Positions 7,259 through 21,896 of a DNA stretch of 46,242 nucleotides are shown in pieces. How positions within the stretch are numbered: position 1 is the first letter of the stretch; every line of letters begins with the position of its first letter. The translations under genes were made by a program, and so were the position numbers. This DNA comes from a virus. Where the stretch lies: positions 1 through 46,242 of the IMG/VR virus record IMGVR_UViG_3300025585_001486. One strand, 5' to 3'. The notes below the pieces were generated by a model that made no database searches, was not told the DNA's origin, and saw only the letters and a list, made by a program, of their open reading frames with translations.

Positions 7259-7426
7259 ATGCGTCTCTCATTGATTCTGGTGGCTCTTAGTCTCCTCTCC
7301 GGCTGTGTGGACGCCTCGCTGAAGCGCGAACGCGGCGCGACGGTGAACGGCTATACGACGTATCACACGGTCCTGCACGTCGATGTCGTCGATGAGCCGG
7401 TCTGCACGGGAAGCTGCAAGCCATGA
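7259..7426 (+). CDS. Small lipoprotein
   Basis: 55 residues behind AAAAAGGAGGTTCCG. It has a signal sequence (MRLSLILVALSLL) and lipobox LSGC with the lipidated cysteine at residue 16. The mature part is ~40 residues with a C-terminal CTGSC motif that could form a disulfide. Its stop overlaps the next start (ATGA). An exported lipoprotein next to terminase genes is unusual for a virion module; superinfection exclusion is a known job for phage lipoproteins but is unproven here. Confidence 0.75.
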   Translation: MRLSLILVALSLLSGCVDASLKRERGATVNGYTTYHTVLHVDVVDEPVCTGSCKP

Positions 7427-7722
7427 GCAGCAAATTGATCAAGGGGCCGGGGTTCGGGCGCCCGGTGAACGCGGTCCTCCAGCTCCCGTATCCGAGCGAG
7501 GAGATCCTGAAGACGCTGACCATCATCCTGAAGGCCGATGGCAATGTGGAAGTGATGGGCGCGGTGGGGAATCTGGAATTCGCGCAGCATTTCCTGGACG
7601 CCGGACGTGCGCGCCTGGAGCAGTGGCACGCGCAAGTGGAAGCGCATAAGGCTGAGCAAGCGAAGAAGACCGAGGCGTTTTTGAACGGCAGCGAACCGAA
7701 CACGCCCGAGGCCCATGCCTAA
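7423..7722 (+). CDS. Hypothetical protein upstream of terminase
   Basis: 99 residues, coupled to the lipoprotein and overlapping the large terminase start. The N-terminal half is beta-rich (VNAVLQLPYPSEEILKTLTI, then a DGNVEVMG turn); the second half is a long charged helix (RARLEQWHAQVEAHKAEQAK). No family recognised. It could act as a packaging accessory because of its position, but there is no motif evidence. Confidence 0.72.
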   Translation: MSSKLIKGPGFGRPVNAVLQLPYPSEEILKTLTIILKADGNVEVMGAVGNLEFAQHFLDAGRARLEQWHAQVEAHKAEQAKKTEAFLNGSEPNTPEAHA

Positions 7723-9304
7723 ACCGTTGTCGATCGAGGAACAGCATGCGGAGATCGATCGGTGGCTGTTCGAGCCGCTGTACTGGGCCAAGCGGTTTGG
7801 GGGGAAGGACTTTGATCCGTGGTCCGGCCAGGAAGACCTGTGGACGGAGTACGGCAAGCTGTTGAACGCGAAACTGAAGCGGTATCAGGGCGCGACGTTG
7901 ACGGAGGAGGATGAAAAGTACGTCAACAAGATGGGCATTTCGATCATGGCCGGGCAAGGGTTGGGCAAGGAACGGTCGGTCTCGCTGATCGGGCTGCATT
8001 ATCTGTTTATGCTGAAGACGTACATGCCGAAGGGGGTGTGTACGGCGCCGGCGGGGCCGACGCTGCATTCGACGTTGTGGCCGGAGTTCGGCAAGGTGAT
8101 TGCGGGGAGCGAGTTCCTGTCGGCGCTGTTCGAGAAGCAGAGCAACCGGATTTTTTTGAAAGAGGATAAAAAGCGCGGCGAGTTTATGCGGATTGAGCCG
8201 CGCACGATTCAACAGAACTCGAATCCCGATGAGCAGAGCGTGGTGCTGGCGGGCATCCATGCGACGGGGGTGATCTACATTGTGACGGAAGCCTCGGGCG
8301 TGCAGGACAGCGTGTTTAAGCCGATCGAGGGCGGGCTCACGGATCCGTTGTCGATGGTGATTATGATTTTCAACCCGACCAAGCGCGGGGGATTTGCGTA
8401 CGACAGTCACGAGAAGAACCGGCGGGACTGGGTGTGTTTGCAGTGGAGCGGCCGGACGCTGAAGAAGGAACGGCAGCTGCATCCGGGGAGGTTCCCGTGG
8501 TTCAACGAGCACGCGCAGGACGTGCTGATCCGGAAGTTCGGCGAGGACAGTGACTTTGTGCGGATGCGCGTCGATGGGCTCCCGCCGAAACTGGCGATGG
8601 ATACGCTGATCGGGTATGAGGACGCGATGGCAGCGGTCGAGCGGCAAGTGGAGACGCTGCCCCATGACCCGCTGTGTGTGGCGGTGGACGTGGCCGGCGA
8701 GAAGGGGAACGATAAGTCGATCGTGCTGACGCTGCAAGGGCCGAAGATGACGGGGATGGACGAGTTTACGAACAAGAACACGGCGCAGCTGGGGGATTGG
8801 GTGGCGGGCCAGGTGCGAACCCAGCTGACGAGCTTGCCGATGGACGTGCAGTTTCAGATCGGGGTGGACACGATCGGGATTGGGCGCGGGGTGTACTTTC
8901 ACCTGACGGACGTGCAACGGCTCCGGCATGTGCACATGATCGACGTGAGCCAGGCGGCGCTGGATGAGCGGCGGTATCACCGGCTGCGCGATCAGATTTG
9001 GTGGGAGTTGCGCGAAGCGTTTGTGGAGACGCGGGAGATCGTGATTCTGAACGATGACGAGTTGATCGGGCAGCTGACGTCGATCAAGTGGGGCGAGGTA
9101 GACGGGAAAATCAAGATCCAGGGCAAGGGGAACAGCTCGGGGATTCCTGGGGTGCCCCCGCTGGCGAGTTCGCCGGATAAGGCGGACGCGCTGGCGATGG
9201 CCTGGTGGCTGTACAAGCATTTCTGTTCGCGGATGCCGGAAGGTGCGGTGGCGAAGCGATTACGCCGGGACCGGACGCGGCCGATTAGCTGGAAGGTGCG
9301 ATGA
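7715..9304 (+). CDS. terL: Terminase large subunit
   Basis: 529 residues, the usual size. The N-terminal ATPase has a diverged Walker A, GQGLGKE at 80-86 (glutamate where Ser/Thr is normal), and Walker B-like IYIVTEA at 187-193 with the usual Asp replaced by Thr before the catalytic Glu. The C-terminal nuclease has its three acidic clusters: D325 in AVDVAGEKGNDKS, D385 in GVDTIGIG, and D488/D491 in SPDKADALAM. It cuts concatemers and drives DNA into the prohead through the portal encoded just downstream. The start overlaps the previous stop. Confidence 0.93.
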   Translation: MPKPLSIEEQHAEIDRWLFEPLYWAKRFGGKDFDPWSGQEDLWTEYGKLLNAKLKRYQGATLTEEDEKYVNKMGISIMAGQGLGKERSVSLIGLHYLFMLKTYMPKGVCTAPAGPTLHSTLWPEFGKVIAGSEFLSALFEKQSNRIFLKEDKKRGEFMRIEPRTIQQNSNPDEQSVVLAGIHATGVIYIVTEASGVQDSVFKPIEGGLTDPLSMVIMIFNPTKRGGFAYDSHEKNRRDWVCLQWSGRTLKKERQLHPGRFPWFNEHAQDVLIRKFGEDSDFVRMRVDGLPPKLAMDTLIGYEDAMAAVERQVETLPHDPLCVAVDVAGEKGNDKSIVLTLQGPKMTGMDEFTNKNTAQLGDWVAGQVRTQLTSLPMDVQFQIGVDTIGIGRGVYFHLTDVQRLRHVHMIDVSQAALDERRYHRLRDQIWWELREAFVETREIVILNDDELIGQLTSIKWGEVDGKIKIQGKGNSSGIPGVPPLASSPDKADALAMAWWLYKHFCSRMPEGAVAKRLRRDRTRPISWKVR

Positions 9305-9534
9305 GTAGCTATTGCGAGCAGCATGGGATGACGTACAGAGCAGGGTGCGGAGCCTGTCAAGAAGTGAAAGGGGGTGAGAGGCATGGCGAAGTCCAAGAAA
9401 AGCGGCGGCAAGAAAAAGTGCTAAATGAGGCGCATGTACAGACGTTGCGAGACCTGCATCGGAAGGTCAAGGGGACCTATTTGCAGCTCTCGCAACTGCT
9501 GGATGAGCTTGACTTATTGATGCGAACCGTATAA
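9301..9534 (+). CDS. Small zinc-knuckle/helical protein
   Basis: 77 residues, overlapping the terminase stop by ATGA. C5-x2-H8 and C16-x2-C19 (YCEQHG and GCGACQ) could bind zinc. The C-terminal 35 residues form an amphipathic helix (TLRDLHRKVKGTYLQLSQLL). The segment between is basic and also encodes, in another frame, a 13-residue Lys-rich peptide (9383-9424) with its own purine-rich leader; one of the two may be the functional product there. Confidence 0.6.
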   Translation: MSSYCEQHGMTYRAGCGACQEVKGGERHGEVQEKRRQEKVLNEAHVQTLRDLHRKVKGTYLQLSQLLDELDLLMRTV

Positions 9535-9548
9535 TACGGATATCGTAC
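9509..9548 (+). promoter_or_regulatory. Candidate promoter/operator before portal gene
   Basis: TTGACT at 9509-9514 and a perfect TATAAT at 9530-9535 with a 15-bp spacer (shorter than ideal). TATCGTAC follows at 9541-9548, the exact complement of the direct repeats at 5748 and 5759. This suggests a regulated internal promoter for the virion genes. Confidence 0.45.
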
Positions 9549-9573
9549 AACCCCCCTCCATCTCGGAGCCACG

Positions 9574-11730
9574 TTGTCGGGAGCAGCCCTACACGTGGCG
9601 ACACTTTCGACAACCTCCTCAGTAGACACCGGCAGTCAGGATTTCGATTTTCTGTTGACCACGATGCGCCGTGGCGACGACGGCGAGAACCTGCAACGGA
9701 TGCAGCGGTTTGTGTTGGATGCGGCCACGCACCCGACGCGGACCATGTACGAAGCCGAATCCTCGCTCAATTACCAATACATCGAGAACGAGTTTTACAC
9801 TGAAGAGGAATTGCAGGCGTTCGCGGAACGCGGGCAGCCGCCCACGAAGCGCAATGAAATTGCGCCGATCATGGAGCGGATTGCCGGGCAGTTTATTCAG
9901 ACGCGCCAGGTGGCGACGTTCCTGGGACGCAATACGCCGGCGGATGATCCCGTCGGGGCGCTCGCGCAGGATTATCAGCGGTGGAACGATCAACAGAACC
10001 AGCTGGAGTTCGAGGAGCAGGACCTCGCGTGGGACGGACTCATCGGCGGGGTCGGTTGGCTCAAGTCGTACATCAAGCGGAACGAGTTGGGGCAGGAGTA
10101 CGAGTGTACGAAGCACCTCAACCCGTATCACGTCTTCAAAGATCCGTATAGCACGCGCTATGACCCGAACGAGGATGCGAAGTATATCTGTGAAGGGTCC
10201 TGGATGGACCTGGAGGATGTCATTGCGCTCGTCCCTGACAAGGAGGAGGAGCTTCGTGACGTCCTGGCGGGGCCGACCGGGCATACATTCCAGGTCGCAA
10301 GCCAGGTCGCGCCCTCCCTACAGAACGAATCACTCCAAGGGGGCATTTACTCCCTCTCCTACACGGTCCTGAACAACCGGAAGCGGGTCCGCCCGTTCGA
10401 GGTGTGGTACAAGCGGAAAGTCCGGCTCTATCACGTCTTCAGTGACTCGGGCGTGCTGGCGATTCCAGTGCCGCTCGACTCGAAGACGTCAAAAGCGGTG
10501 GTCAAGGAGCTGGGCGGGCGCGTCTATGCCCGGCCGACGTTCCAGGACCGGATGTACTGTGGGCTGTTCCTGGGGAACCTGCTGCTGCATCACGACGTCT
10601 CGCCGCATCACACGAACTTCTTTCCCTACATTCCCTTCTACTCGGGTTTGCGGAAGAACGGCGCGCCGTTGCCGCTCTCGTCTCGCCTGGTCCCGATCAA
10701 CGAATCGATCAACAAGCGCGAAAGCAAAGCCCTCGCGTTGATGACGAACAACAAGATTATCGCGGAAAAGGGCGCGCTGGACGACGACAGCGACGCGCAG
10801 GAAGAGAACGCGAAGCCCGACGGGCTGGTGACGGTGCGCGATGGCGCGCTTTCCGGCGGGCGCGTGCAGTTCCAGACCAATCTCGACATGGGCACGGCGC
10901 AGCTCCAGCTGCTCCAGGAAGACAAAGACGCGATTCGGCGGGTGTCGGGCCAGGGCAACGAGTCGATGGGGATGCCGAGCGAAGTGCGCTCGGGCACCGG
11001 CATTGCCCGCAAGCAGATGATGGGCAACCTGATCATTACGCCGGTCCAGAACAATCTGCGGCGCACGCGGTTTATGAAGGCGCGGCTCTCGTTTGCGTAC
11101 ATGAAGCAGTACGTGACGGAGGAGATGGCGTTTCAGATCACTGACGATCCGAAGGTGGTCCGCACGGTTCAGCTTACCAAGGGGCATCTGCAAGCCCTCA
11201 AGGAACGCACCTACGACATTGTCATTACGGAAATGAAGGACTACGCGGTGCTGCGCGAACAACAGGCCGAGATGCTGTTGACCGTGCTGCCGCAACTCGC
11301 GGCGCTGGGCCCGGGCATGGTGAAGCTCGGGATCCAGATGACGGAGTTCCGCGACAAAGACGTGTTGATGCAGATGGTGGACGGGGCGAGCCAGCCCGCG
11401 CCGGCCGTGCCGAAAATCAATCTCACGATGGCCTGGGCGGACCTGACGCCCGAGATGCAGGCGTATGTGGCAATGACGGCGATGCAGAGTCCCGAACTCG
11501 CGCAGGCGTTGATGCAGAAGGGCGATGACCCGGCCTTTGTCCAGAAGATCAAAGCGGAATTGGCGAAGACCCTGACGGTGGAAGGGACGCGCGCCACGAT
11601 TGAACGCGGACGGCTCGACTTGTCGGCCCTCCAGGCGGCGGTCGAAGGCCGATTGGAAGTCAAGAAAATCATGGGGCAAGGCGCACCGATGGTGGCGCCG
11701 GCTCCGCAAGACGAAGGAGCGATGGCATGA
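9574..11730 (+). CDS. Portal protein, P22 type
   Basis: 718 residues, close to the 725 of P22 portal. The likely start is TTG at 9574 behind CGGAG; a GTG at 9595 is an alternative. Residues ~30-150 are the charged clip/wing region. Around residue 380, an INKRESKALALMTNNKIIAE segment followed by KGALDDDSDAQEEN and later GQGNESMGMPSEVRSGTGIA matches the conserved core of P22-like portals. The C-terminus is helical (barrel-like). It forms the dodecameric DNA channel and binds terminase. It overlaps the scaffold start by four bases. Confidence 0.9.
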   Translation: MSGAALHVATLSTTSSVDTGSQDFDFLLTTMRRGDDGENLQRMQRFVLDAATHPTRTMYEAESSLNYQYIENEFYTEEELQAFAERGQPPTKRNEIAPIMERIAGQFIQTRQVATFLGRNTPADDPVGALAQDYQRWNDQQNQLEFEEQDLAWDGLIGGVGWLKSYIKRNELGQEYECTKHLNPYHVFKDPYSTRYDPNEDAKYICEGSWMDLEDVIALVPDKEEELRDVLAGPTGHTFQVASQVAPSLQNESLQGGIYSLSYTVLNNRKRVRPFEVWYKRKVRLYHVFSDSGVLAIPVPLDSKTSKAVVKELGGRVYARPTFQDRMYCGLFLGNLLLHHDVSPHHTNFFPYIPFYSGLRKNGAPLPLSSRLVPINESINKRESKALALMTNNKIIAEKGALDDDSDAQEENAKPDGLVTVRDGALSGGRVQFQTNLDMGTAQLQLLQEDKDAIRRVSGQGNESMGMPSEVRSGTGIARKQMMGNLIITPVQNNLRRTRFMKARLSFAYMKQYVTEEMAFQITDDPKVVRTVQLTKGHLQALKERTYDIVITEMKDYAVLREQQAEMLLTVLPQLAALGPGMVKLGIQMTEFRDKDVLMQMVDGASQPAPAVPKINLTMAWADLTPEMQAYVAMTAMQSPELAQALMQKGDDPAFVQKIKAELAKTLTVEGTRATIERGRLDLSALQAAVEGRLEVKKIMGQGAPMVAPAPQDEGAMA

Positions 11731-12545
11731 GCACGACAGCGGTTATTGAGCAACCAGTCACCCCGAAAGATGTGGCCTCTGTGTTCTACGACGAACCGGA
11801 GCCCGCAGCCCCAGTGATCGAGACACCCCCAGCGCCAGTCGAGGAGCCTGGACCTGCCGCCACGCCAGAGGCGTCTGCGGCCTCCACTGAGACGGCCAAA
11901 AGCGAGGAGCCTCCGAAGGGGACGGAGACGAAACCGAAGGACGAGGGCGGGCACATGGCGGCGGCGCGTCGGTTGGGCCAGGAAGTCGCGGATCTCAAGC
12001 GCGAGTTTGCGGTGATCGCGGAAGAGAACCGTGTCCTCAAGGCCAAGCTCGATGGAACGTACCAGGACCCGCCGAAAGAGACGCCGGAAGAAGCCGTGGC
12101 GCGCGCGGAGTTCAAGGGGCGGGAAGCCGCTTCGCGGGAAGTCGCGGTGGGCTTGTACGGGAAAGAGGCGCTGGAGCGCGAAGTCTACGGCGACGGCTCG
12201 ACGTTCAAGCAGCTCGTGAAAGAGGAGATGGAGCAGAGCAAGGGGAAGTCGTGGACCTACCTGGAAGTCGTGAACTCTCCTCAGCCGCCGATCGCGGCCA
12301 TGCGGGCGATTGCCCGGCGCGATTTTGCGAAGAAGTACGGCGACGATCCGGCCAAGTGGGTCGAGAAGATCGAGGCCGAACTCGAACCAAAAATCTTAGA
12401 GAAATTCAAAACACAAGCGGCGGTCCCTGTGACGGGAGCACCGGCTCCAACGGTCTCCGAGGCGCGAGGCTCCGGCGGACGCGCGCGGGAGAAATCGATT
12501 GAGTCGATGTTCTACGGCGAGGGCAGCGGCGAGAAAGGGAATTAG
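11727..12545 (+). CDS. Scaffolding protein
   Basis: 272 residues. The N-terminal ~75 are Pro/Glu-rich and disordered (PAPVEEPGPAATPEASAAST), followed by a coiled coil (~85-115, DLKREFAVIAEENRVLKAKL) and a helical C-terminal half rich in Lys/Glu. The extreme C-terminus has SIESMFYGEG, echoing VASVFYDEP near the N-terminus. Acidic, helical and placed between portal and coat genes, this is the classic scaffold profile. It would guide coat assembly and leave before DNA packaging. Confidence 0.82.
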   Translation: MSTTAVIEQPVTPKDVASVFYDEPEPAAPVIETPPAPVEEPGPAATPEASAASTETAKSEEPPKGTETKPKDEGGHMAAARRLGQEVADLKREFAVIAEENRVLKAKLDGTYQDPPKETPEEAVARAEFKGREAASREVAVGLYGKEALEREVYGDGSTFKQLVKEEMEQSKGKSWTYLEVVNSPQPPIAAMRAIARRDFAKKYGDDPAKWVEKIEAELEPKILEKFKTQAAVPVTGAPAPTVSEARGSGGRAREKSIESMFYGEGSGEKGN

Positions 12546-12547
12546 TT

Positions 12548-13564
12548 ATGTCTACGTTGAACGGCACCGTCCTGAGTTTGTTGGATCACGCCAAGCGGCT
12601 CAGTCCTGGCGGAAAGGTCGAGAAGATTGCGGAGTTGCTGTCACAGAACAACGCCATTCTTACCGACATGCAGTGGCAAGAGGGGAACCTCCCGACCGGA
12701 CACCGCACGACGGTGCGGACGGGACTCCCGACCGTCGCCTGGCGCCTGTTGAACGGGGGCGTGGCAACGGGCAAGAGCACCACGGCACAGATCGATGAAG
12801 GTTGCGGGATGCTCGAAGCCTGGTCCGAAGTCGATAAGGACTTGGCCGAGCTGAACGGAAACGTGTCGGCCTTCCGCTTGTCGGAAGCGACCGCGTTCAT
12901 CGAAGCGATGAATCAGGAAATGGCCTCGACGTTGTTCTACGGGAACAGCGGAACGGCACCGGAAGAGTTCACCGGCCTCGCGGCGCGCTACAGCACCATC
13001 TCAGGTGCGACGAACGGCGAGAACGTGCTGAACGGCGGCGGATCGGGCTCGGACAATTCGAGCATCTGGCTCGTGGTGTGGGGACCGCAAACCATTCACG
13101 GCATCTACCCCAAGGGCAGCTCAGCCGGGTTGACCCATGAAAACCTCGGGCTCTGCACGATTGAGAGCACGGGAGGGATCGGATCCGGGACGCGCATGCG
13201 GGCGTACCGGGATCATTGGCAGTGGAAGTGCGGGATTGCGCTCCGCGATTGGCGGTACGTGGTTCGGATTGCCAACATCGACGTGTCCGATTTGGTCGGG
13301 AAGCTATCGGCGGCCGATCTCGTCGAACTGATGATCAAGGCGATTCACCGGATTCCCGGCGATAGCGCGTTTTCGATGGGCAAGCCCGTGTTTTACATGA
13401 ACCGATCGCTGTTTCAGATGCTCGACATCCAGCGCCGGGCTGACGTGATCGCCGGCGGCGGGCTGACCTACGAGAACGTGGACGGGAAGATGGTTCCGAC
13501 GTTCCGGGGCATCCCGGTCCGCAAGTGCGATGCGCTCACGGAGGCCGAATCCACGATCAGCTAA
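12548..13564 (+). CDS. Major capsid protein
   Basis: 338 residues. The N-terminal helix region (LSLLDHAKRLSPGGKVEKIA then LLSQNNAILTDMQW) is typical of coat proteins in BPP-1-like podoviruses. Next come PTGHRTTVRTGLPTVAWRLL, FYGNSGTAPEEFTGLAARY and a C-terminal domain with KPVFYMNRSLFQMLD and FRGIPVRKCDAL, all features of the HK97-fold group. It lies straight after the scaffold and before the cement protein. It builds the icosahedral shell. Confidence 0.88.
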   Translation: MSTLNGTVLSLLDHAKRLSPGGKVEKIAELLSQNNAILTDMQWQEGNLPTGHRTTVRTGLPTVAWRLLNGGVATGKSTTAQIDEGCGMLEAWSEVDKDLAELNGNVSAFRLSEATAFIEAMNQEMASTLFYGNSGTAPEEFTGLAARYSTISGATNGENVLNGGGSGSDNSSIWLVVWGPQTIHGIYPKGSSAGLTHENLGLCTIESTGGIGSGTRMRAYRDHWQWKCGIALRDWRYVVRIANIDVSDLVGKLSAADLVELMIKAIHRIPGDSAFSMGKPVFYMNRSLFQMLDIQRRADVIAGGGLTYENVDGKMVPTFRGIPVRKCDALTEAESTIS

Positions 13565-13589
13565 TTCTTTTGAGGACGGAGGAACGATC

Positions 13590-14066
13590 ATGATTCTCGA
13601 TGCACAAATGCAGTTTTCCGATTCACAGGCGCTCACCACCACAGGGGACGTGGGCACCAACGTCATTGACCTCGGCGGGGACCGATCCATTGGGACCGGC
13701 GAGCCGATGGCGGTCCTGTTCTGCGTGGAAGTGGCGGCCGATCAAACCACGGGCGACGAAGACTACACGTTCGACGTGGAGTACGCCTCGGCGGCCGCAC
13801 AGAACGCGGGGCGGCAGCTCATCGGGCGCCGGGTGTTTGAGTCCGGCACCCCGACGGCGCCGGCGCAGGACGCCGACCTCCTGGTGGCGGGGTACAAGTT
13901 CTACATTCCGATTCCGCCGACCGTGCTCAGCGAGAGCGAGCGGTATCTCGGGGTGCGGTACACGTTGGCCGGCACCACGCCGACGATTACGGTCAGCGCC
14001 TACTTGCAGCCGTTGAGCATGTGTGAAGCGCAAGTCGTGTACCCGAACGGCTACACGATCTCATAG
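13590..14066 (+). CDS. Bbp16-family capsid cement protein
   Basis: 158 residues; start at 13590 behind GGACGGAGGAACGATC. The N-terminus MILDAQMQFSDSQALTTTGD followed by TNVIDLGGDRSIGTGEP is characteristic of the Bbp16 cement family known from Bordetella phage BPP-1. The rest is a beta-sandwich pattern ending in ITVSAYLQPLSM. It should clamp the outside of the shell at coat contacts. A strong hairpin follows the gene. Confidence 0.87.
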   Translation: MILDAQMQFSDSQALTTTGDVGTNVIDLGGDRSIGTGEPMAVLFCVEVAADQTTGDEDYTFDVEYASAAAQNAGRQLIGRRVFESGTPTAPAQDADLLVAGYKFYIPIPPTVLSESERYLGVRYTLAGTTPTITVSAYLQPLSMCEAQVVYPNGYTIS

Positions 14067-14075
14067 TGAGAGGAC

Positions 14076-14101
14076 AGGGGGCGGGGGACACCCCGCTCCC
14101 T
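14076..14101 (+). terminator. Strong intercistronic hairpin after capsid genes
   Basis: An 11-bp stem with one G-U pair (AGGGGGCGGGG with CCCCGCTCCCT) closes a four-base loop. TTTCTTT comes about 12 bases later, so it is not a textbook terminator. Placed just after the coat and cement genes, it could reduce downstream transcription or protect capsid mRNA ends. Confidence 0.55.
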
Positions 14102-14180
14102 GAGTGCCGGCTTTCTTTCAGTCTCGGCGCGCGATGGGCGGATGCCGGACCCGACCCAGCCCGAGAGAAGGGACCTGATC

Positions 14181-15113
14181 ATGTCGAATATGGACCGCTA
14201 CCGATGGATTCGGGAGCAGCTGTCACGGGACAAACTGGCCGGCATGGCCGCTCGCATTACGGGCGACACGTTCCATGTCGTCCCTGGCTCAGCCGCCACG
14301 CATATCACCTATGCGAAGTCGGTGCGCCGGAACGTCTACACCACGATCGACGAAGCCTATTCCAAGGTCGTGAGTGGGCGCGGCGATGCGCTGGTGATTT
14401 GGCCGGGGTCACATACCCCGACCGCCTCGATCGTGGCGGAAAAGGACAACGTGGCCGTGTATGGCGCGGAAGCCTGGATGGGGCTGAAAGTGCGGAAGCC
14501 GGCGAGCATCATCACGGCGCCGGCAGCTGACGAAGCCTTCAACATCACGGGCGCGAACATGAAGTTCGTCGGCCTGACGTGTATCCCCGTGACCACGAAA
14601 TCGTTTGCCGATTTTACCGGCGCAGCGGACGGCCTGACCATCAAGGATTGCTACATCGATCTCGCCACGCCGGCGGTGAACATCGCCACGGAAGGGTTCA
14701 CGGGCTCGGCGGCGATCGACAACCTGCTCGTTGAGGGCAATGTGGCGTGGTCGGACGGCGCCCAAGGGCCGGCCTTCGAGATTACCGGCCTGAACAACAA
14801 CGCCTTCTTTACCCGCAACCACTTCCATGTGGACGCGGGCACGTGGGCGTCGGCCGTCAACCTGATCGATCCTGACGGCATCGTGGTGGAGAACGATCTG
14901 GCGACGTGCGGCGGGACCGCCATGACGGCCTGCTACACCGGATCCGGCACCACCGTCATTGCGGGCGTCGTCTTCCGGAACAACCACAAAGGCGTGCTGG
15001 TCACGTTGTTTGCGGACGGATTCGGGACGACCTCACACGCGGAGCTGGTCAACAACTACACGGCGACGATCGGTGGCGGCACCGGGAGCACGCTGATCAC
15101 TGTCATCACCTAG
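14181..15113 (+). CDS. Beta-helix virion-associated protein
   Basis: 310 residues; start at 14181 (MSNMDRYRWI) behind GAGAAGGGACCTGATC. After a helical N-terminus, residues ~50-305 show regularly repeated short strands and turns (NVAVYGAE, FNITGANMKFVGLTCIP, GLTIKDCYIDLAT, NLLVEGNVAW, NAFFTRNHFHV, GIVVENDLATC), the pattern of a right-handed parallel beta-helix of the pectin-lyase type. No catalytic residues can be assigned. Its place after the cement gene suggests a capsid decoration or fibre protein. It lies between two intercistronic hairpins. Confidence 0.72.
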   Translation: MSNMDRYRWIREQLSRDKLAGMAARITGDTFHVVPGSAATHITYAKSVRRNVYTTIDEAYSKVVSGRGDALVIWPGSHTPTASIVAEKDNVAVYGAEAWMGLKVRKPASIITAPAADEAFNITGANMKFVGLTCIPVTTKSFADFTGAADGLTIKDCYIDLATPAVNIATEGFTGSAAIDNLLVEGNVAWSDGAQGPAFEITGLNNNAFFTRNHFHVDAGTWASAVNLIDPDGIVVENDLATCGGTAMTACYTGSGTTVIAGVVFRNNHKGVLVTLFADGFGTTSHAELVNNYTATIGGGTGSTLITVIT

Positions 15114-15122
15114 GCATGAACC

Positions 15123-15152
15123 GGATGGAGCGGGCGGGGGCTCGCTCCATCC
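15123..15152 (+). terminator. Perfect 10-bp intercistronic hairpin
   Basis: GGATGGAGCG at 15123-15132 pairs perfectly with CGCTCCATCC at 15143-15152 around a ten-base G-rich loop. No T tract follows. It precedes the ribosome site of the gene at 15168 by a few bases, so it could modulate its translation or act as an RNA-processing or stability element. Confidence 0.55.
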
Positions 15153-15167
15153 ATGACGGAGGACGCG

Positions 15168-15371
15168 ATGAAGGTACGAGTGAAATCAGGACGGATGGGG
15201 TACTACGGGCTGACGCGCCGGCGGGAAGGCACAGAGTTCGAGCTGGAGAAGGACAGCGACTTCAGCGAGAAATGGATGGAGCCGGTCGATGGTCCGGCGC
15301 CCGTGAAGCCGGTTGTCGAGAAGGCGAAGACCGAGACCGCGAAGCCGAGCGCCGGGAAGGCGAAAGAGTAG
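15168..15371 (+). CDS. Small conserved head-region protein
   Basis: 67 residues; start at 15168 (MKVRVKSGRMGYYG) behind GGAGGACGCG. The motif MGYYG, then EGTEFELEK and FSEKWMEPVD is a pattern I associate with small proteins encoded beside capsid genes of many tailed phages. The second half is a Lys/Pro/Ala-rich disordered tail. Probably a minor head or head-tail factor; role not established. Confidence 0.75.
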   Translation: MKVRVKSGRMGYYGLTRRREGTEFELEKDSDFSEKWMEPVDGPAPVKPVVEKAKTETAKPSAGKAKE

Positions 15372-15381
15372 GGAGGACGCT

Positions 15382-15813
15382 ATGAAGATCAAGTCACTCC
15401 TGGCGGGGCTCCTGGTGATGCTGGCGCTTGCCGGGGCGGTGGGCGCGGCGATCGAATCGACGATCACCAAGACCGTGACCGTCAACACCAACGCGGCCGA
15501 TTTTACCGTCGTGGCGACGGCCGCGAATCGCACGATTCGCGTCACGCACCTCGACGCGCAGAACGTCGGGACGGCGAACAAGGTGGCGGTGAAATTCTGC
15601 GATGGGCCGTGTGCCTCAGCCACGTCGATCATTGGGCCGTTTGAGCTATCTCCGGCCTCGGCGAGTGCGATGGGCGGGGGCTATAGCTTTGTGTGTTCGG
15701 GCCCGAATTGCGCGTGGGTGATTACGGCGGGGAACGCGCTGATCGCGCAAGTCGATACCGGCGCGACGAACAACGTGCGCGTGCATGTCACGTATCAGTA
15801 TTACCAGAGGTAA
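15382..15813 (+). CDS. Secreted beta-rich protein with signal peptide
   Basis: 143 residues, start at 15382 behind GGGAGGACGCT. It has a clear Sec signal peptide, MKIKSLLAGLLVMLALAGA, with likely cleavage after VGA near residue 22. The mature part is Thr/Val-rich beta sheet (TITKTVTVNTNAADFTVVAT) with four cysteines (FCDGPCAS and FVCSGPNCAW) that could form two disulfides in the periplasm. Ordinary virion proteins assemble in the cytoplasm, so a cleavable signal is surprising. It is the first of five signal-peptide genes here; an exported surface or superinfection role is inferred. Confidence 0.75.
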   Translation: MKIKSLLAGLLVMLALAGAVGAAIESTITKTVTVNTNAADFTVVATAANRTIRVTHLDAQNVGTANKVAVKFCDGPCASATSIIGPFELSPASASAMGGGYSFVCSGPNCAWVITAGNALIAQVDTGATNNVRVHVTYQYYQR

Positions 15814-15816
15814 CGA

Positions 15817-16905
15817 GTGACCGTGAAAGCCTGGCATCCGGCCTATATCCTGGTGGCGCTCCTGGCACTCCTGCCGATTATGGCGGCGGTGCCATTGGCG
15901 TCCAAAGTCGCCCGTGTCGCGGTGACGGCTTCCCCGCATTATGTCTACACGGTCGGGCTCTTGGTCCTGTTTTCGGCCTGGATCGGACAGCGGGACGGCT
16001 GGCTCGGGCTCTTGATGGGCTGGGTGAGCCTGTCGCTGCTGTGGACGCCAACCGTGGCGGCGTTTGAAGTGGTCGAAACACTGGTCATGTCGGTGATGGC
16101 CCTGACGATTCTGCGGGCGCTCCCTGTGCGGGGGCACGAGATTGTCGTGGGGGTGCTGGTAGCGGCCGGCCTCTTTCAAGTGCTCGACGGGTTCCAGCAA
16201 TGGCTGGGGTATGACGTCCTGTGGCACGGGTTCGCACAAATCCATCCGATTGCAGCGGTCTTCGGGACCACTGGCAACTCGAACTACTACGGGGCGTATC
16301 TGGCGATGATTGCGCCGCTCGCGCCCTGGTGGACGGTGCCGTTCTTTCTGCTGGGCATCGTGCTCTCGCATTCCCTGCTGGCCGTTGTGGCGGTGTCCGT
16401 GGGGCTGCTCTGGCGCGTACGAGAACACAAAAAATTGGTGGCGTTTGGCGTGTCGGCGGCGGTCCTGGGGGCCGTCGTGGTGATGATCTTGAAGGGGAGC
16501 ACGCCCTTCTCAGGCTTTCAGCACCGGCTGACGGTGTGGCAACTCGCCATACAGAACTTGAACCCGCTCGGATGGCTCATTGGGGCCGGTCCCGGGAATT
16601 GGCAGCTACAGATTCCCTCGCTCCAGGTGCAGCGGGGCATCTATCCCAACGAGGTGTTTTTGCAGGGGCATAACGAATGGCTCCAGCTGCTCTATGAGAA
16701 CGGGCTTGTTTCTGTCGGGCTGCTCGGGGCCTGGTTGTGGTCACAACGAACGGCCTGGGTCGGTCCCTATGGCGGGGCGGCGTTGGCGGTCGCGGTGACG
16801 AGCTTCGGGATGTTCGGGTTTCGGTTGGCGATCACAGGCTGCGTGGCATTGGTCATTCTCGGCTTGGCGACGGCGGATGAGCGATCACACGAGGAGCACG
16901 TATGA
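15817..16905 (+). CDS. O-antigen ligase/polymerase-like membrane protein (Wzy_C)
   Basis: 362 residues, GTG start behind AGAGG, about ten membrane helices. FGTTGNSNYYGAYLAMIAPL (149-168) and the large loop with R237 (FQHRLTVWQLA), GAGPGNW (256-262) and GHNEWLQLLYENGLVSVGLL (284-303) are hallmarks of the O-antigen ligase/polymerase family, with R237, H285 and E294 as likely key residues. The family joins or polymerises lipid-linked glycans on the periplasmic side of the inner membrane. In a phage this suggests seroconversion: changing host O-antigen to block adsorption. Phage D3 carrying its own Wzy is a precedent. Its stop overlaps the next start, so it is expressed with exported adhesin-like proteins. 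Confidence 0.86.
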   Translation: MTVKAWHPAYILVALLALLPIMAAVPLASKVARVAVTASPHYVYTVGLLVLFSAWIGQRDGWLGLLMGWVSLSLLWTPTVAAFEVVETLVMSVMALTILRALPVRGHEIVVGVLVAAGLFQVLDGFQQWLGYDVLWHGFAQIHPIAAVFGTTGNSNYYGAYLAMIAPLAPWWTVPFFLLGIVLSHSLLAVVAVSVGLLWRVREHKKLVAFGVSAAVLGAVVVMILKGSTPFSGFQHRLTVWQLAIQNLNPLGWLIGAGPGNWQLQIPSLQVQRGIYPNEVFLQGHNEWLQLLYENGLVSVGLLGAWLWSQRTAWVGPYGGAALAVAVTSFGMFGFRLAITGCVALVILGLATADERSHEEHV

Positions 16906-18371
16906 AACGGATTGCAGGACTATTGGCGCTCATGGTCGCGCTGGCGATCGGGCTGACGGCGCAAGCCCAATTTTTCGGTGGAAGCGGATCCGGCAGCGGG
17001 GGCGGCGGCGCGGCGAGTGCGGCCGGCTCGACCTCGGCCGTTCAAACCAATGTGAACGGGGCGCTCGCGGATAGCGGTTGTACGGCGGTGTCGGGAAGCG
17101 CCCGTATGAATTGCGTCAATGGATTGACGGCCTCATTTGCGACACTCTCCAGCGTGACGGCGACGTTGGCGAACGCAACCGGACTCCCGATTACAACCGG
17201 CGTGAGTGGCTTGGGTACTGGGGTGGCGACGATCTTAGGGACCACGCCCACCGGCACCGGCGGCTTGGTGGCGGGCAGTTCTCCGACGCTCACGACTCCG
17301 AACCTCGGCAGACCATCCTCAATTTTCCTGGTCAATGCGGCCTCGATGCCTGCCACCGGCATCACGGGCACGTTGCCCTTGGCGAACGGCGGCACGAATC
17401 AAACCTCATGGACCTCTTCGCGCTGCGTGCAAGTGAACGCGGGCGGGACGGCCTTAGAATCGGCGGCGGCGGCGTGCGGCACAGGCGGCACCGGCTCAAG
17501 TTCCACAGGGGCCTCTGGCGTGGTGCAATCGGCTGACGGCAGCGGCGGCTTTGTCAGCGCAGGGTGTACCTCACTCAACGGGCGGATCACCTGCCCTGGT
17601 GGGTTTGTCGCGGGTACATCCAGCCTGGGGGTGATGACCCTCCTGGAAGGCTCAGCGACCGGCGCGGGCGCGAACAGCGGCGAGCATAACTGCTGGATCG
17701 ACTCGACTGATTCACTCTTGCATTGCTTTGAAAACGGCGCAGCGTCACAGGCTACCTACGTCACCACGACGAACGGGGCCACGCTGGTCAATAAATCGTA
17801 CAACGTCGAAGCGACCGGCAACTATCTCACGCTGGTCAAGACGCTCTGGTTCCCGGCAGCGGGGGCGAGTGGCGCGAGTGCGGCGGCGGTGTGGGATCTT
17901 CCGGCCAGTGCGCCTGCCGTGGCCTCTGCCGTGCTGTTAACGAACACCGTCAAGGGCGTGCTGGACTTCCCGAACAATGACGATACATCTGCGCAGATTG
18001 TCCACCGGCTGTCACGGTTCTGGAACAGTGGCCCGGTTGAAGCCTTGATTTCCTGGCTGTCCACGACCACGAGTGGCAACGTGACGTGGTACTTGCAAAC
18101 GGTCTGCACGGCGGACGGCGAAACCGATGATGCCTCATTCAACGCGACGGGTGCCAACAATACGATTGTCGATGCAGCCAAAGGGACAGCCCGCCAACTG
18201 AATACGGCGACGATTGCGAGCCTGACCATGACGGGCTGCTCGCCACGGGAGAACCTGCACCTCAAGATTCGGCGGCATGCAGGCGACCCGAACGATACGC
18301 TTGCGGGCACGGCGAGCTTGTACGGGGTGGAATTGACCATCCGTGAACAGCAAACGACGGTGCCGCAATGA
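16902..18371 (+). CDS. Exported protein with tail-fibre repeats
   Basis: 489 residues, coupled to the upstream gene by ATGA. Signal peptide MKRIAGLLALMVALAIGLTA with AQA cleavage near residue 23, then a Gly/Ser linker. Residues ~45-165 contain the repeat type of many tail fibres (ATGLPITTGVSGLGTGVAT, then SPTLTTPNLGRPSS, then ITGTLPLANGGTNQTSW). The C-terminal ~200 residues are a beta-sandwich-like domain (GNYLTLVKTLWFPAAG onward). A fibre-like protein with a Sec signal is unusual. Either it is exported as a decoy or adhesin, or the signal acts after lysis or in virion maturation. Confidence 0.75.
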   Translation: MKRIAGLLALMVALAIGLTAQAQFFGGSGSGSGGGGAASAAGSTSAVQTNVNGALADSGCTAVSGSARMNCVNGLTASFATLSSVTATLANATGLPITTGVSGLGTGVATILGTTPTGTGGLVAGSSPTLTTPNLGRPSSIFLVNAASMPATGITGTLPLANGGTNQTSWTSSRCVQVNAGGTALESAAAACGTGGTGSSSTGASGVVQSADGSGGFVSAGCTSLNGRITCPGGFVAGTSSLGVMTLLEGSATGAGANSGEHNCWIDSTDSLLHCFENGAASQATYVTTTNGATLVNKSYNVEATGNYLTLVKTLWFPAAGASGASAAAVWDLPASAPAVASAVLLTNTVKGVLDFPNNDDTSAQIVHRLSRFWNSGPVEALISWLSTTTSGNVTWYLQTVCTADGETDDASFNATGANNTIVDAAKGTARQLNTATIASLTMTGCSPRENLHLKIRRHAGDPNDTLAGTASLYGVELTIREQQTTVPQ

Positions 18372-19144
18372 GAGTGCATCGTAGAGGGCGCTGGGGCGTC
18401 ATTGGGAGCCTTGCGCTCTGCCTTGTAAGTCTCGCGTCTCAGGGCTGGGCCGCATTAGCCGCAGGCACACCTGTGTCACAGGTCGGGACGGCGTTTACCC
18501 AAACAACAACCGTCTCTAGCGTGGCCGTATCCGGAAGTGACAGGGTATTGATCTGCCTCTCTGCCTGGCAATCTTCGACGGCGACACCCACTGTCAATTT
18601 TAATACGTCTGAAACGCTGACACAGATTGGCTCTACCGCGCTCTATTCCGGTATCCGTGTTGCAGCATGGTACAAGATTGCTCCCACGTCAACCACGGCG
18701 AACGTTGTATTCGATTGGGGTGGCGGGGAAGAGTCAAGGGCGTTTGCGATCTGTGTCCCGTTGACGGGGGCCGATCAAACCACGCCGACAACAGGATGGA
18801 CCTCGGCCTCTGGTACAAGTACGAGTCCATCGGTGACAGTGGCCGGTGTCGCGTCTGGTGAATATGTGTTCGATGTGATTGGGACGCACGGCAGCACGAC
18901 ATTGGCATTAGGGGCCACTGCGAGAACGCAATTGCCAGAGGGTGCGATGGCGAGTGCAGGAACCGCGTCTGGGAGCTATGAGGATAATTCGACCGGCTCC
19001 GTGGCAATGAACTGGACGGCTGATTTAGATGATTGGGTGATTGGGGCGTTTCGGGTGACTGCGGCAAGTGGGGGTGGCAGTGGGGGTGGCAGTGGGGGTG
19101 GCAGTAGTGAGACATTTGGCTTTCGCATGAGGATCATCCAATGA
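18368..19144 (+). CDS. Exported beta-sandwich protein with GGGS linker
   Basis: 258 residues, coupled by a four-base overlap. Twin basic N-terminus MRVHRRGRWGVIG and a hydrophobic stretch ending GWA (residue ~28) form a signal peptide; the RRGRW is not a canonical Tat motif. The mature part is a Thr/Ser-rich jelly-roll-like domain (AVSGSDRVLICLSAWQSST, later SGEYVFDVIGTHGST). A natural GGGSGGGSGGGS linker at residues ~235-246 joins it to a short C-terminal segment ETFGFRMRIIQ, perhaps a docking peptide. Ligand unknown; surface binding is likely. Confidence 0.72.
   Translation: MRVHRRGRWGVIGSLALCLVSLASQGWAALAAGTPVSQVGTAFTQTTTVSSVAVSGSDRVLICLSAWQSSTATPTVNFNTSETLTQIGSTALYSGIRVAAWYKIAPTSTTANVVFDWGGGEESRAFAICVPLTGADQTTPTTGWTSASGTSTSPSVTVAGVASGEYVFDVIGTHGSTTLALGATARTQLPEGAMASAGTASGSYEDNSTGSVAMNWTADLDDWVIGAFRVTAASGGGSGGGSGGGSSETFGFRMRIIQ
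19067..19102 (+). repeat. Three tandem 12-bp units encoding SGGG
   Basis: AGTGGGGGTGGC is repeated three times without change inside the gene at 18368, encoding a flexible SGGG linker. Perfect nucleotide identity implies recent slippage, and copy number may vary between isolates. Confidence 0.9.
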
Positions 19145-19983
19145 ACATCCTGAGAGGATTGGTTGTTGTGTCGGGCATCCTGCTCGGAGTCGCGCATCCC
19201 GCCACTGCGGCGGTGACGCTCCCCTTTTCCAGCACCTACGATTGCGTGGAACAGGAACAGGCGGACGGCACCTGGGTCACCTGCGACGGACTGAGCAGTT
19301 CGGGCGGGTGGACCACGAGCAACGGGGCTAAAGAGGCTATCACGTCCGCCGCGAACTATACGAGCGGGGGCGGCGGGCGTGGACAACGGCACTGGATCGG
19401 GAACGGCACAAACAACAATAGCGGCAGCGTGCATGTCGGGATCAATTCGCCTCCGCAAGTCCTGTATGTCCGCTTTTATTTTCGTTATCAGTCCGGCATT
19501 AGCATGTCGGGCGGCTCGCATAAAGTCTTGTACTTCACCGGCTCCGATTGTTCAGGGAATTCAGGGGGGTGCTATTTTGCCTTTGAAGGCACGTCTAATT
19601 TTCGCTTGACCGTGGCGGGGAGCAATTTCGACAACGGCAGTACATGGGGCTGGAACGATCTACATGGTGGGTCGAGTTCTGACGGGAACTGGCATTGGAT
19701 CGAAGTGATGGTGAATAGGACAGCAGGCACGGCAAAAGCCTGGTTTGATGGCACGCTCCGGCTTGACCAATCCAGTGTAACCTATGGCGGGAGTTCGGCA
19801 GGGTTTTCGGGGTTTGAGTTGCCGGAGAATGCCGTGGTCAGTACAGGCGGCACCGATAAATATGAGGACATTGACGACCTGGCGATCCAGACGACGGGAC
19901 CGATTGGGGCGCTGGGCGGAGCGAGTGGTAGCTCTGTCGTCATCGGAGGCGTTCAATTCACCGGCACAGTGAGGATTCAATGA
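19141..19983 (+). CDS. Exported lectin-like (concanavalin-type) protein
   Basis: 280 residues, overlapping both neighbours by four bases. Signal peptide MNILRGLVVVSGILLGVAHP with cleavage after ATA near 23. The mature domain has the strand pattern of a concanavalin A-like jelly roll: QVLYVRFYFRYQSG, HKVLYFTG, CYFAFEG, then NWHWIEVMVNRTAGTAKAWF with DGTLRLDQ and DKYEDIDDLAIQT, close to LamG and polysaccharide-lyase-like folds. Carbohydrate binding is likely, lyase activity possible, but no catalytic set is identified. Beside an O-antigen ligase-like gene, a glycan target makes sense. Confidence 0.75.
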   Translation: MNILRGLVVVSGILLGVAHPATAAVTLPFSSTYDCVEQEQADGTWVTCDGLSSSGGWTTSNGAKEAITSAANYTSGGGGRGQRHWIGNGTNNNSGSVHVGINSPPQVLYVRFYFRYQSGISMSGGSHKVLYFTGSDCSGNSGGCYFAFEGTSNFRLTVAGSNFDNGSTWGWNDLHGGSSSDGNWHWIEVMVNRTAGTAKAWFDGTLRLDQSSVTYGGSSAGFSGFELPENAVVSTGGTDKYEDIDDLAIQTTGPIGALGGASGSSVVIGGVQFTGTVRIQ

Positions 19984-20450
19984 TACAAGTATTGATTCTA
20001 CTCCTTTCACTACTCCTCTCATTTGAGGCTCATGCAGCCACCTTACTCTGGGACCAGCAAACGATTGTCAGCCCTCTGACCGTCGAGAAAAGCGCGACGG
20101 CGAGCGGGGCGTATACCACAGTCGCCACGCTTCCAACCGGCGCAACCGAATTTGTCCTGACCCCTGGGGCCTATGGCTGGTATCGGGTCCGCAATAGTGC
20201 AGGCCCGTCTAACGTGGTCCAGTTCTCACTGGATCTCTACACGGGCTTGGTGACGGATCGGCTGACGGCCTTGGAAACGCGGGTCACGGCGCTTGAATCA
20301 TTCACGCCCACGCCCATTCCTACGCCTGTTCCATCCAGCAACCTGACCGTGCGCCAGATCGACGCGGACCATATTGAAATCACCTGCAACGGCATCGGCA
20401 TCAGCACCACGGGCAGCGGAACCCGCAGACTCATGGAGTGCCGGCACTGA
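19980..20450 (+). CDS. Exported modular protein with coiled coil
   Basis: 156 residues. Signal peptide MIQVLILLLSLLLSFEAHA, cleaved after AHA. Residues ~20-85 resemble a fibronectin-like beta domain (VEKSATASGAYTTVATLPTG). A short coiled coil (VTDRLTALETRVTALES) may trimerise it, followed by a Pro/Thr linker (TPTPIPTPVPSSN) and a ~40-residue C-terminal domain with two cysteines. The domain order resembles a small trimeric fibre. It ends where the transglycosylase starts (TGATG). Confidence 0.72.
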   Translation: MIQVLILLLSLLLSFEAHAATLLWDQQTIVSPLTVEKSATASGAYTTVATLPTGATEFVLTPGAYGWYRVRNSAGPSNVVQFSLDLYTGLVTDRLTALETRVTALESFTPTPIPTPVPSSNLTVRQIDADHIEITCNGIGISTTGSGTRRLMECRH

Positions 20451-20923
20451 TGACGCGCACCGAACTGGAGCAGGTCATTCGCCAGCATCCTGACCGGGGA
20501 ACGTTGCCGGTTGAATGCGTGATGGCGTTCTGTATCGTCGAGTCCAGCTTGAATGAATGGGCCTATCGCTACGAGCCCGGCTACAAGTGGATCGTGGGGG
20601 AGACCCTGACGCCAAGCGAACGGATCGGGCAAATGATCTCCTGGGGGTTGATGCAGGTCATGGGCGGGGTGGCGCGTGAGCATGGCATGGTCGGGCCGTT
20701 TCCGCAGCTCTGTGATCCAGTGATCGGCCTCCGCTATGGGATGCTGCACCTCCGGAAGTATTGGGCGAAGTACCAGAATTGGCCGGACACCATTGCGAGC
20801 TACAACGCAGGGCATCCGGTGCGGATCGATGGGAAATACGCGAACCAACAGTACGTCGATAAAGTGCTGAAGTGGTGGAACGTGTACGAGCACCAAGTCC
20901 CGCTGAAAGAGACGGAGGCGTGA
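20450..20923 (+). CDS. Lytic transglycosylase (SLT/lysozyme-like)
   Basis: 157 residues from the ATG overlapping the previous stop; an in-frame GTG at 20438 is an alternative. The fold signatures of soluble lytic transglycosylases are present in order: catalytic E31 in FCIVESSLN, SWGLMQVM at 64-71, ASYNAG at 116-121, and GKYANQQYVDKV at the end. It cleaves peptidoglycan glycan strands. No signal peptide is seen, so it needs a holin, or acts from the virion during DNA entry. The large ejection protein at 27543 has no evident lysozyme domain, so a virion role is possible. Confidence 0.88.
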   Translation: MTRTELEQVIRQHPDRGTLPVECVMAFCIVESSLNEWAYRYEPGYKWIVGETLTPSERIGQMISWGLMQVMGGVAREHGMVGPFPQLCDPVIGLRYGMLHLRKYWAKYQNWPDTIASYNAGHPVRIDGKYANQQYVDKVLKWWNVYEHQVPLKETEA

Positions 20924-21511: not shown

Positions 21512-21736
21512 ATGTGGTCGGAAGCGATTGGGGCGGTGGCGGAACTGTCGAAGAAGGTCTTTGACTGGGCCACGGGCGGGCGGACCAAGAGCGAGAACGT
21601 CTTACGAGAGACGGCGGATCACTGGAAGGCGGAATATGATGCGGCGATGGCACGGCGGGACTATGTGGCTGCTAATGATGCTCTGCACCATTTGCGCCGG
21701 GTGCGCGACCAAGCCCGCGCTCAGCGTGGGGCCTGA
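21512..21736 (+). CDS. Small helical protein overlapping a lipoprotein gene
   Basis: 74 residues, helical throughout (AIGAVAELSKKVFDWATGG, then NVLRETADHWKAEYDAAMAR). No membrane segment. Its last ~100 bases are shared, in another frame, with the lipoprotein at 21636, an arrangement like Rz/Rz1 spanin pairs. However, an inner spanin should carry an N-terminal membrane helix, which this lacks. Confidence 0.62.
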   Translation: MWSEAIGAVAELSKKVFDWATGGRTKSENVLRETADHWKAEYDAAMARRDYVAANDALHHLRRVRDQARAQRGA

Positions 21737-21896
21737 CGGGCGCGGGTGCCTGGTGGGCGTGGTGGATTCGACGGAAGCGGCGATTCTGCGCGCGAAGAAT
21801 CCGGCGATCCTGGCTGGTGATTTTGTAATGACCGCGTTTTGCGCCGAGTCCATCGGGGCAGACCTCCACAATGAGATTTACGAACTGACGAGGTAA
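21636..21896 (+). CDS. Lipoprotein, Rz1-like candidate
   Basis: 86 residues from ATGATG at 21636 (preceded by GGAAGGCGGAAT); a shorter form from 21663 (MWLLMMLCTICAGC) is possible. The hydrophobic segment ends ICAGC, a lipobox with an atypical Cys at -3. The mature part has VGPDGRGCLVGVVDSTEAAI. It is read in a different frame across the end of the upstream gene. Position behind the transglycosylase suggests an outer-membrane spanin, though it is not proline-rich. Confidence 0.6.
   Translation: MMRRWHGGTMWLLMMLCTICAGCATKPALSVGPDGRGCLVGVVDSTEAAILRAKNPAILAGDFVMTAFCAESIGADLHNEIYELTR

Follow-up and report, generated by a model that had tools for sequence, protein, structure and literature searches.

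A phage gene cassette for predicted exported proteins with an O-antigen-ligase-type enzyme, and recurrence of the exported-protein/enzyme pair in other uncultured phages

The window analysed, a stretch of 46,242 nucleotides corresponding to IMG/VR record IMGVR_UViG_3300025585_001486, derives from a podovirus of the BPP-1/BcepC6B kind. It encodes a major capsid protein at 12548..13564 (phrog_212 major head protein, E 1.4e-85; 91 phage records match, with best isolate capsid matches of 53-56% identity), a portal protein (phrog_156) and a Bbp16-like capsid stabilisation protein at 13590..14066 (Pfam Bbp16, E 1.7e-11). These are followed by a small protein at 15153..15371 carrying the motif MKVRxxxGYYxxRRREG, which precedes a variable slot in relatives and shows the same position and motif in loci L008, L036, L050, L052, L016, L020 and L055 (L-numbers denote the phage loci used for comparison). 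The slot of the window holds six genes, and the first gene after them, at 20450..20923, encodes an SLT-type endolysin (Pfam SLT, E 9.2e-10), with a small lipoprotein (lipobox CAGC), a possible outer spanin, further downstream at 21636..21896. The genes given here with coordinates and the six genes of the slot lie on the plus strand.

The first gene of the cassette (15382..15813) encodes a signal peptide followed by a small beta-type protein of 124 aa with four cysteines (CDGPC, CSGPNC) and a Ser/Ala/Pro tract, SPASASA; it has only weak matches to phrog_22604 and phrog_1148, both of unknown function, and ends 3 nt before a gene for a multi-helix membrane protein (15817..16905). The next gene (16902..18371) encodes a fibre-repeat protein with ten cysteines in its mature part, whose repeats are shared with the fibre proteins without signal peptides of loci L088 and L089 (phmmer match to such a protein of phage MW202701, E 8e-21). 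It is followed by genes for a jelly-roll-like protein (18368..19144) with two cysteines in the mature part, a GGGS linker and a C-terminal FGFRMRIIQ, for a lectin-like protein (19141..19983) with four cysteines, and for a small protein (19980..20450) with two cysteines after a weaker signal peptide and a short coiled coil. The jelly-roll/lectin reading of 19141 rests on sequence character only. Neighbouring genes overlap by 4 nt at 16905/16902, 18371/18368, 19144/19141 and 19983/19980.

An earlier note, made from the sequence alone, had described five proteins with Sec signal peptides, tightly spaced around a Wzy_C membrane protein, and this observation was confirmed. A heuristic based on a basic n-region, a hydrophobic core and an AXA-type site, used here in place of SignalP, called 15382, 16902, 18368 and 19141, whereas 19980 has the hydrophobic core and an AHA site but no positive charge before it and is therefore weaker. 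The heuristic also called 15817, which starts with a hydrophobic segment that is its first membrane helix. These five called genes are consecutive, and no other gene of at least 100 aa in the window was called. Since the heuristic fires on only 2.9% of antisense ORFs (35/1216), five calls in a row are far beyond chance.

Pfam and NCBIfam scans of the single 15817 protein returned no match. However, when the window was searched as a genome, PF04932 (Wzy_C; O-antigen ligase/polymerase/O-oligosaccharyltransferase superfamily) matched positions 16345-16713 at 27.9 bits (E 5.6e-8), which is below the curated cut-off of 31.7 bits, while relatives of the protein pass this cut-off. The periplasmic R..W..A, GxGPGNW and GHNEWLQLLYENG motifs align with cellular Wzy_C, and in an alignment of 18 phage members R237, G256, G258 and H285 are invariant, R237 and H285 corresponding to the catalytic Arg and His of the WaaL type. 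An AlphaFold model (pLDDT 81) most resembles FtsW and RodA (prob 0.98 and 0.66, respectively, with weak E-values), glycosyltransferases that also use undecaprenyl-linked donors. In the first set of comparison loci, the only other proteins with at least four predicted helices were the twin of 15817 and two that proved to be Wzy_C as well.

Direct homologues of the cassette proteins were almost absent from the sequences searched, records L082, L083, L085, L124 and L150 belonging to the same population as the window and being therefore not independent, and sequence searches against solved structures gave nothing useful. Exported proteins of this type form a recurrent class. In capsid relatives, the variable slot after Bbp16 and the small GYYxxRRREG protein contains signal-peptide proteins in L008, L036, L050 and L052, several of them fibre-like, and L062 has one further downstream that combines a signal peptide with a domain matching phrog_692, a virion structural protein. 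A second slot, between the portal and scaffold/capsid genes, harbours a signal-peptide fibre protein in L016, L017 (8518-9036), L020, L021, L031, L055 and L065, five of which share a disulphide-like C-x5-C hairpin soon after the signal. By contrast, seven isolates of the group, BcepC6B, Jess A, AF, Shamal, PAS61, BUCT554 and TL-2011b, have nothing of the sort in the stretches read. A domain from L036 (8854-9243; alignment A3), with an invariant GG-T-AATGWNF and three invariant cysteines, was found in 34 IMG/VR loci including L036, nearly always in proteins with a signal peptide and often in runs of several exported genes. This undescribed domain has no Pfam or PHROGs match in its parent protein, no match among the isolate phages searched and two hits in genomes, both acidobacterial MAGs; a shared fold of 15382 with A3 was not supported by hhalign. 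A larger cassette than that of the window, with six signal-peptide genes within seven consecutive genes, is present in L120 (2647-7765). The composition noted in the window is thus not unique, since single and multiple signal-peptide fibre proteins are common in environmental phages, and cultured phages appear to miss a common gene class.

A separate line of evidence for export came from cysteine content, as signal calling looked only at N-termini. The mature parts of signal-peptide, GSTAN-rich proteins from related and unrelated uncultured phages have an even number of cysteines in 46 of 51 cases, against 17 of 43 in similar proteins without signals (density 1.73 against 0.78 per 100 aa, P 4e-9), as expected of disulphide-bonded exported proteins; the five proteins of the window have 4, 10, 2, 4 and 2. 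Moreover, the mature part of 19141 is 93% identical to that of a protein in an unrelated phage (L084), although the C-terminal tail (3/20 identical) and the signal sequence (9/23 identical) differ, the latter having diverged while still looking like a signal. Together with the recurrence and the low false-positive rate, these data make it most unlikely that the N-termini are merely hydrophobic starts of ordinary virion proteins, a possibility that remains only because the signal peptides were called by a heuristic.

Of 43 virus records surveyed, three carry Wzy_C, namely the twin contig of the window, L021 and L084. In L021, the enzyme gene directly follows a signal-peptide fibre gene. Two further searches with alignments of phage Wzy_C proteins yielded additional loci, and in every one with readable upstream sequence (L151, L152, L153, L155, L157, L158, L160, L162, L163, L164, L165, L168 and L170) the gene directly before Wzy_C encodes a protein with a signal peptide. 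With L021 and the window this amounts to 15 of 15, thirteen of which were collected by Wzy_C similarity and not by signal peptides, against 14 of 168 other genes (8%; binomial P 6e-17), although several partners share a family, so that the P value overstates the number of independent events. L084 is the one exception, carrying Wzy_C without a signal-peptide neighbour (15 of 16 phages overall), and its enzyme also falls outside the group in the phylogenetic tree. None of ten cellular Wzy_C genes showed this arrangement. Gaps are mostly 1-4 nt, with some pairs overlapping, once in-frame upstream starts in L152, L162 and L170 are counted, and the pair often lies right after the major capsid gene. 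PF04932 matched 15 of 16 newly found records (8 of 16 records above the cut-off) and 15 of 18 family members, and one family member matched TIGR03097, a putative O-glycosylation ligase. The head genes beside the module belong to at least four families (phrog_212, 1328, 371 and 9953), whereas the partners fall, by eye, into about six groups without clear sequence similarity to each other, so the pairing has survived partner and genome exchange. One partner (L164) matches head decoration (phrog_122, E 7e-4) and another matches a virion structural family weakly; an AlphaFold model of one decoration-like partner was of low confidence (58), with no decisive structural match. Partners next to Wzy_C are less rich in cysteine than the class as a whole, several having none.

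A Wzy_C enzyme moves an Und-PP-linked glycan to lipid A-core, to another glycan, or to Ser/Thr of an exported protein, and a constant, tightly coupled exported neighbour fits the third alternative best. The O-oligosaccharyltransferases TfpO/PilO, TfpM and PglS carry the Wzy_C domain and often lie beside the gene of their substrate, a pilin or ComP, in the same orientation, while TfpO and TfpM lack PglL_A and Wzy_C_2 (PMC12645811; PMC3643930), neither of which was matched here at E <= 10, in contrast to what a PglL/PglS-type enzyme would require; 21 of 31 predicted PglL genes lay next to pilin genes (PMC3643930). The phage module differs from these systems in its location in a late operon and in its partner, a decoration- or fibre-like protein with a Sec signal peptide and not a type IV pilin modified at its C-terminal Ser/Thr, as is the substrate of TfpO/TfpM. 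A C-terminal Ser/Thr sequon was rejected, as only 4 of 15 partners end in Ser/Thr, and no common sequon was identified.

The best, although tentative, explanation is that the cassette is a phage-encoded export set with its own glycosylation enzyme. In this view, the 15382, 16902, 18368, 19141 and probably 19980 proteins would be made late in infection from the virion/lysis operon, pass through Sec and fold with disulphides in the periplasm, where 15817 would transfer a glycan from the host's undecaprenyl-pyrophosphate carrier to the protein encoded just before it (15382), and perhaps to its other exported neighbours. At lysis the glycosylated proteins would be released and, because they resemble decoration or fibre proteins, would most likely coat virions or the cell surface. 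Gene order, signal peptides, Wzy_C membership with its catalytic residues and the conserved pairing are established by the present analysis, and export is strongly supported, whereas the glycosyl transfer itself, the enzyme-substrate relation, the glycan involved and the destination of the product are inferred from sequence and by analogy.

The interpretation offered in the earlier note was only partly supported. Its dedicated export set is well supported, and the membership of the Wzy_C protein in this set is also supported, more tightly than could be seen from the window alone. Its statement that no described system with this composition is known holds for the open PMC papers and isolate phages searched, no cultured phage with this head-gene layout being found in the isolate collection with three enzyme sequences as queries. 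Its proposed role, in which decoy adhesins together with O-antigen alteration by 15817, acting as polymerase or ligase on the host's own LPS, would block superinfection or loss of progeny on debris, has no direct evidence and is considered unlikely, although it remains the main rival. Sequence cannot separate an O-oligosaccharyltransferase from an O-antigen ligase or polymerase, as Wzy-beta of phage D3, which changes O-antigen and gives resistance to LPS-dependent phages (summarised in PMC9658991), scores 25.4 bits against PF04932, like the 27.9 bits of the window. However, D3 wzy-beta, one of the seroconversion genes together with iap and oac, lies on the strand opposite to the late genes near the integrase and follows an HNH gene, with no signal-peptide gene before it, whereas the present module sits in the head operon. 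Surface conversion also does not predict a dedicated upstream partner in 15 of 16 phages. The closest published case is the isolated Variovorax phage VarioGold (L173, 2581-4730), in which the signal-peptide gene VG_p25 lies 14 nt upstream of the D3-like Wzy_C gene VG_p26 in a putative lysogeny cluster, which keeps the O-antigen reading alive and represents a culturable system for such pairs. This pair, however, is located outside the late operon, on the strand opposite to the late genes, beside the lysis genes and attP, and its partner is a 299-aa protein without fibre character. The D3 and VarioGold enzymes form their own branch, separate from the module, although deep nodes of the tree are weak.

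It is also possible, though unlikely, that the signal-peptide proteins are accessory fibres or decorations that mature with disulphides in the periplasm and attach to finished virions at lysis, Wzy_C being incidental or only improving their solubility. The fibre-like homologues without signal peptides, the L062 protein and the L164 partner are consistent with this reading, which would leave the strict Wzy_C pairing unexplained. A further alternative, unrelated lysogenic-conversion morons accumulated in a permissive slot and each acting alone on the host surface, draws on the variability of the slot between Bbp16 and the tail genes in relatives and its emptiness in isolates. It is regarded as very unlikely, since the genes are tightly overlapped in the late operon and no integrase was found among the ten window proteins scanned with Pfam. 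Lambda Lom/Bor-type morons likewise are exported proteins encoded in or near late phage genes, but they are single proteins acting on the host envelope without a glycosyltransferase partner.

Tailed phages assemble in the cytoplasm, and conserved export of virion-type proteins thus has no textbook explanation. In its most far-reaching and rather doubtful form, the glycosylation hypothesis implies that many uncultured tailed phages run their own protein O-glycosylation system, in which a decoration- or fibre-like protein is exported, glycosylated in the periplasm with the host's own surface glycan by an oligosaccharyltransferase encoded beside the capsid gene, and put onto virions at lysis, so that particles wear host sugars. 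Decoration proteins such as Hoc and Soc of T4 can bind finished heads, which makes this last step conceivable but speculative. The conserved two-gene unit beside capsid genes of unrelated phages makes glycosylation of the protein by the enzyme a specific and cheaply testable proposition; if true, it would add periplasmic protein glycosylation to phage biology, offer compact oligosaccharyltransferases with dedicated acceptors, and suggest how virions may carry host surface sugars.

The otherwise unrelated phage L084 shares with the window (18368-20923) homologues of the lectin-like protein (88%), of the jelly-roll-like protein without signal peptide (9174-9866, 42% identity) and of the SLT endolysin (76% nt identity), as well as a Wzy_C enzyme, as if both draw on one gene pool or host. 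Contig 3300025872_000262 (L082) is 100% identical to the window over at least 7382-19919 and then, at its position 12103, switches to L084-like sequence, exchanging the C-terminal tail of the 19141 protein, which reflects either recombination or an assembly chimera. A general C-terminal tag (R-x-L-L-G) on exported proteins was also considered, but its 61 hits against 23 expected derive mostly from one small podovirus protein family with a very conserved C-terminus, TILTSPLG...KTLLG (L019, 6683-7063; L012, L016, L029, L055, L059, L074 and others), although some exported proteins end in R-x-L-L-G too, and the tag was discarded. Finally, the minus strand of the window encodes at 889-2709 a DUF3560 plus methyltransferase-like protein, possibly with an anti-restriction or DNA-modification function.
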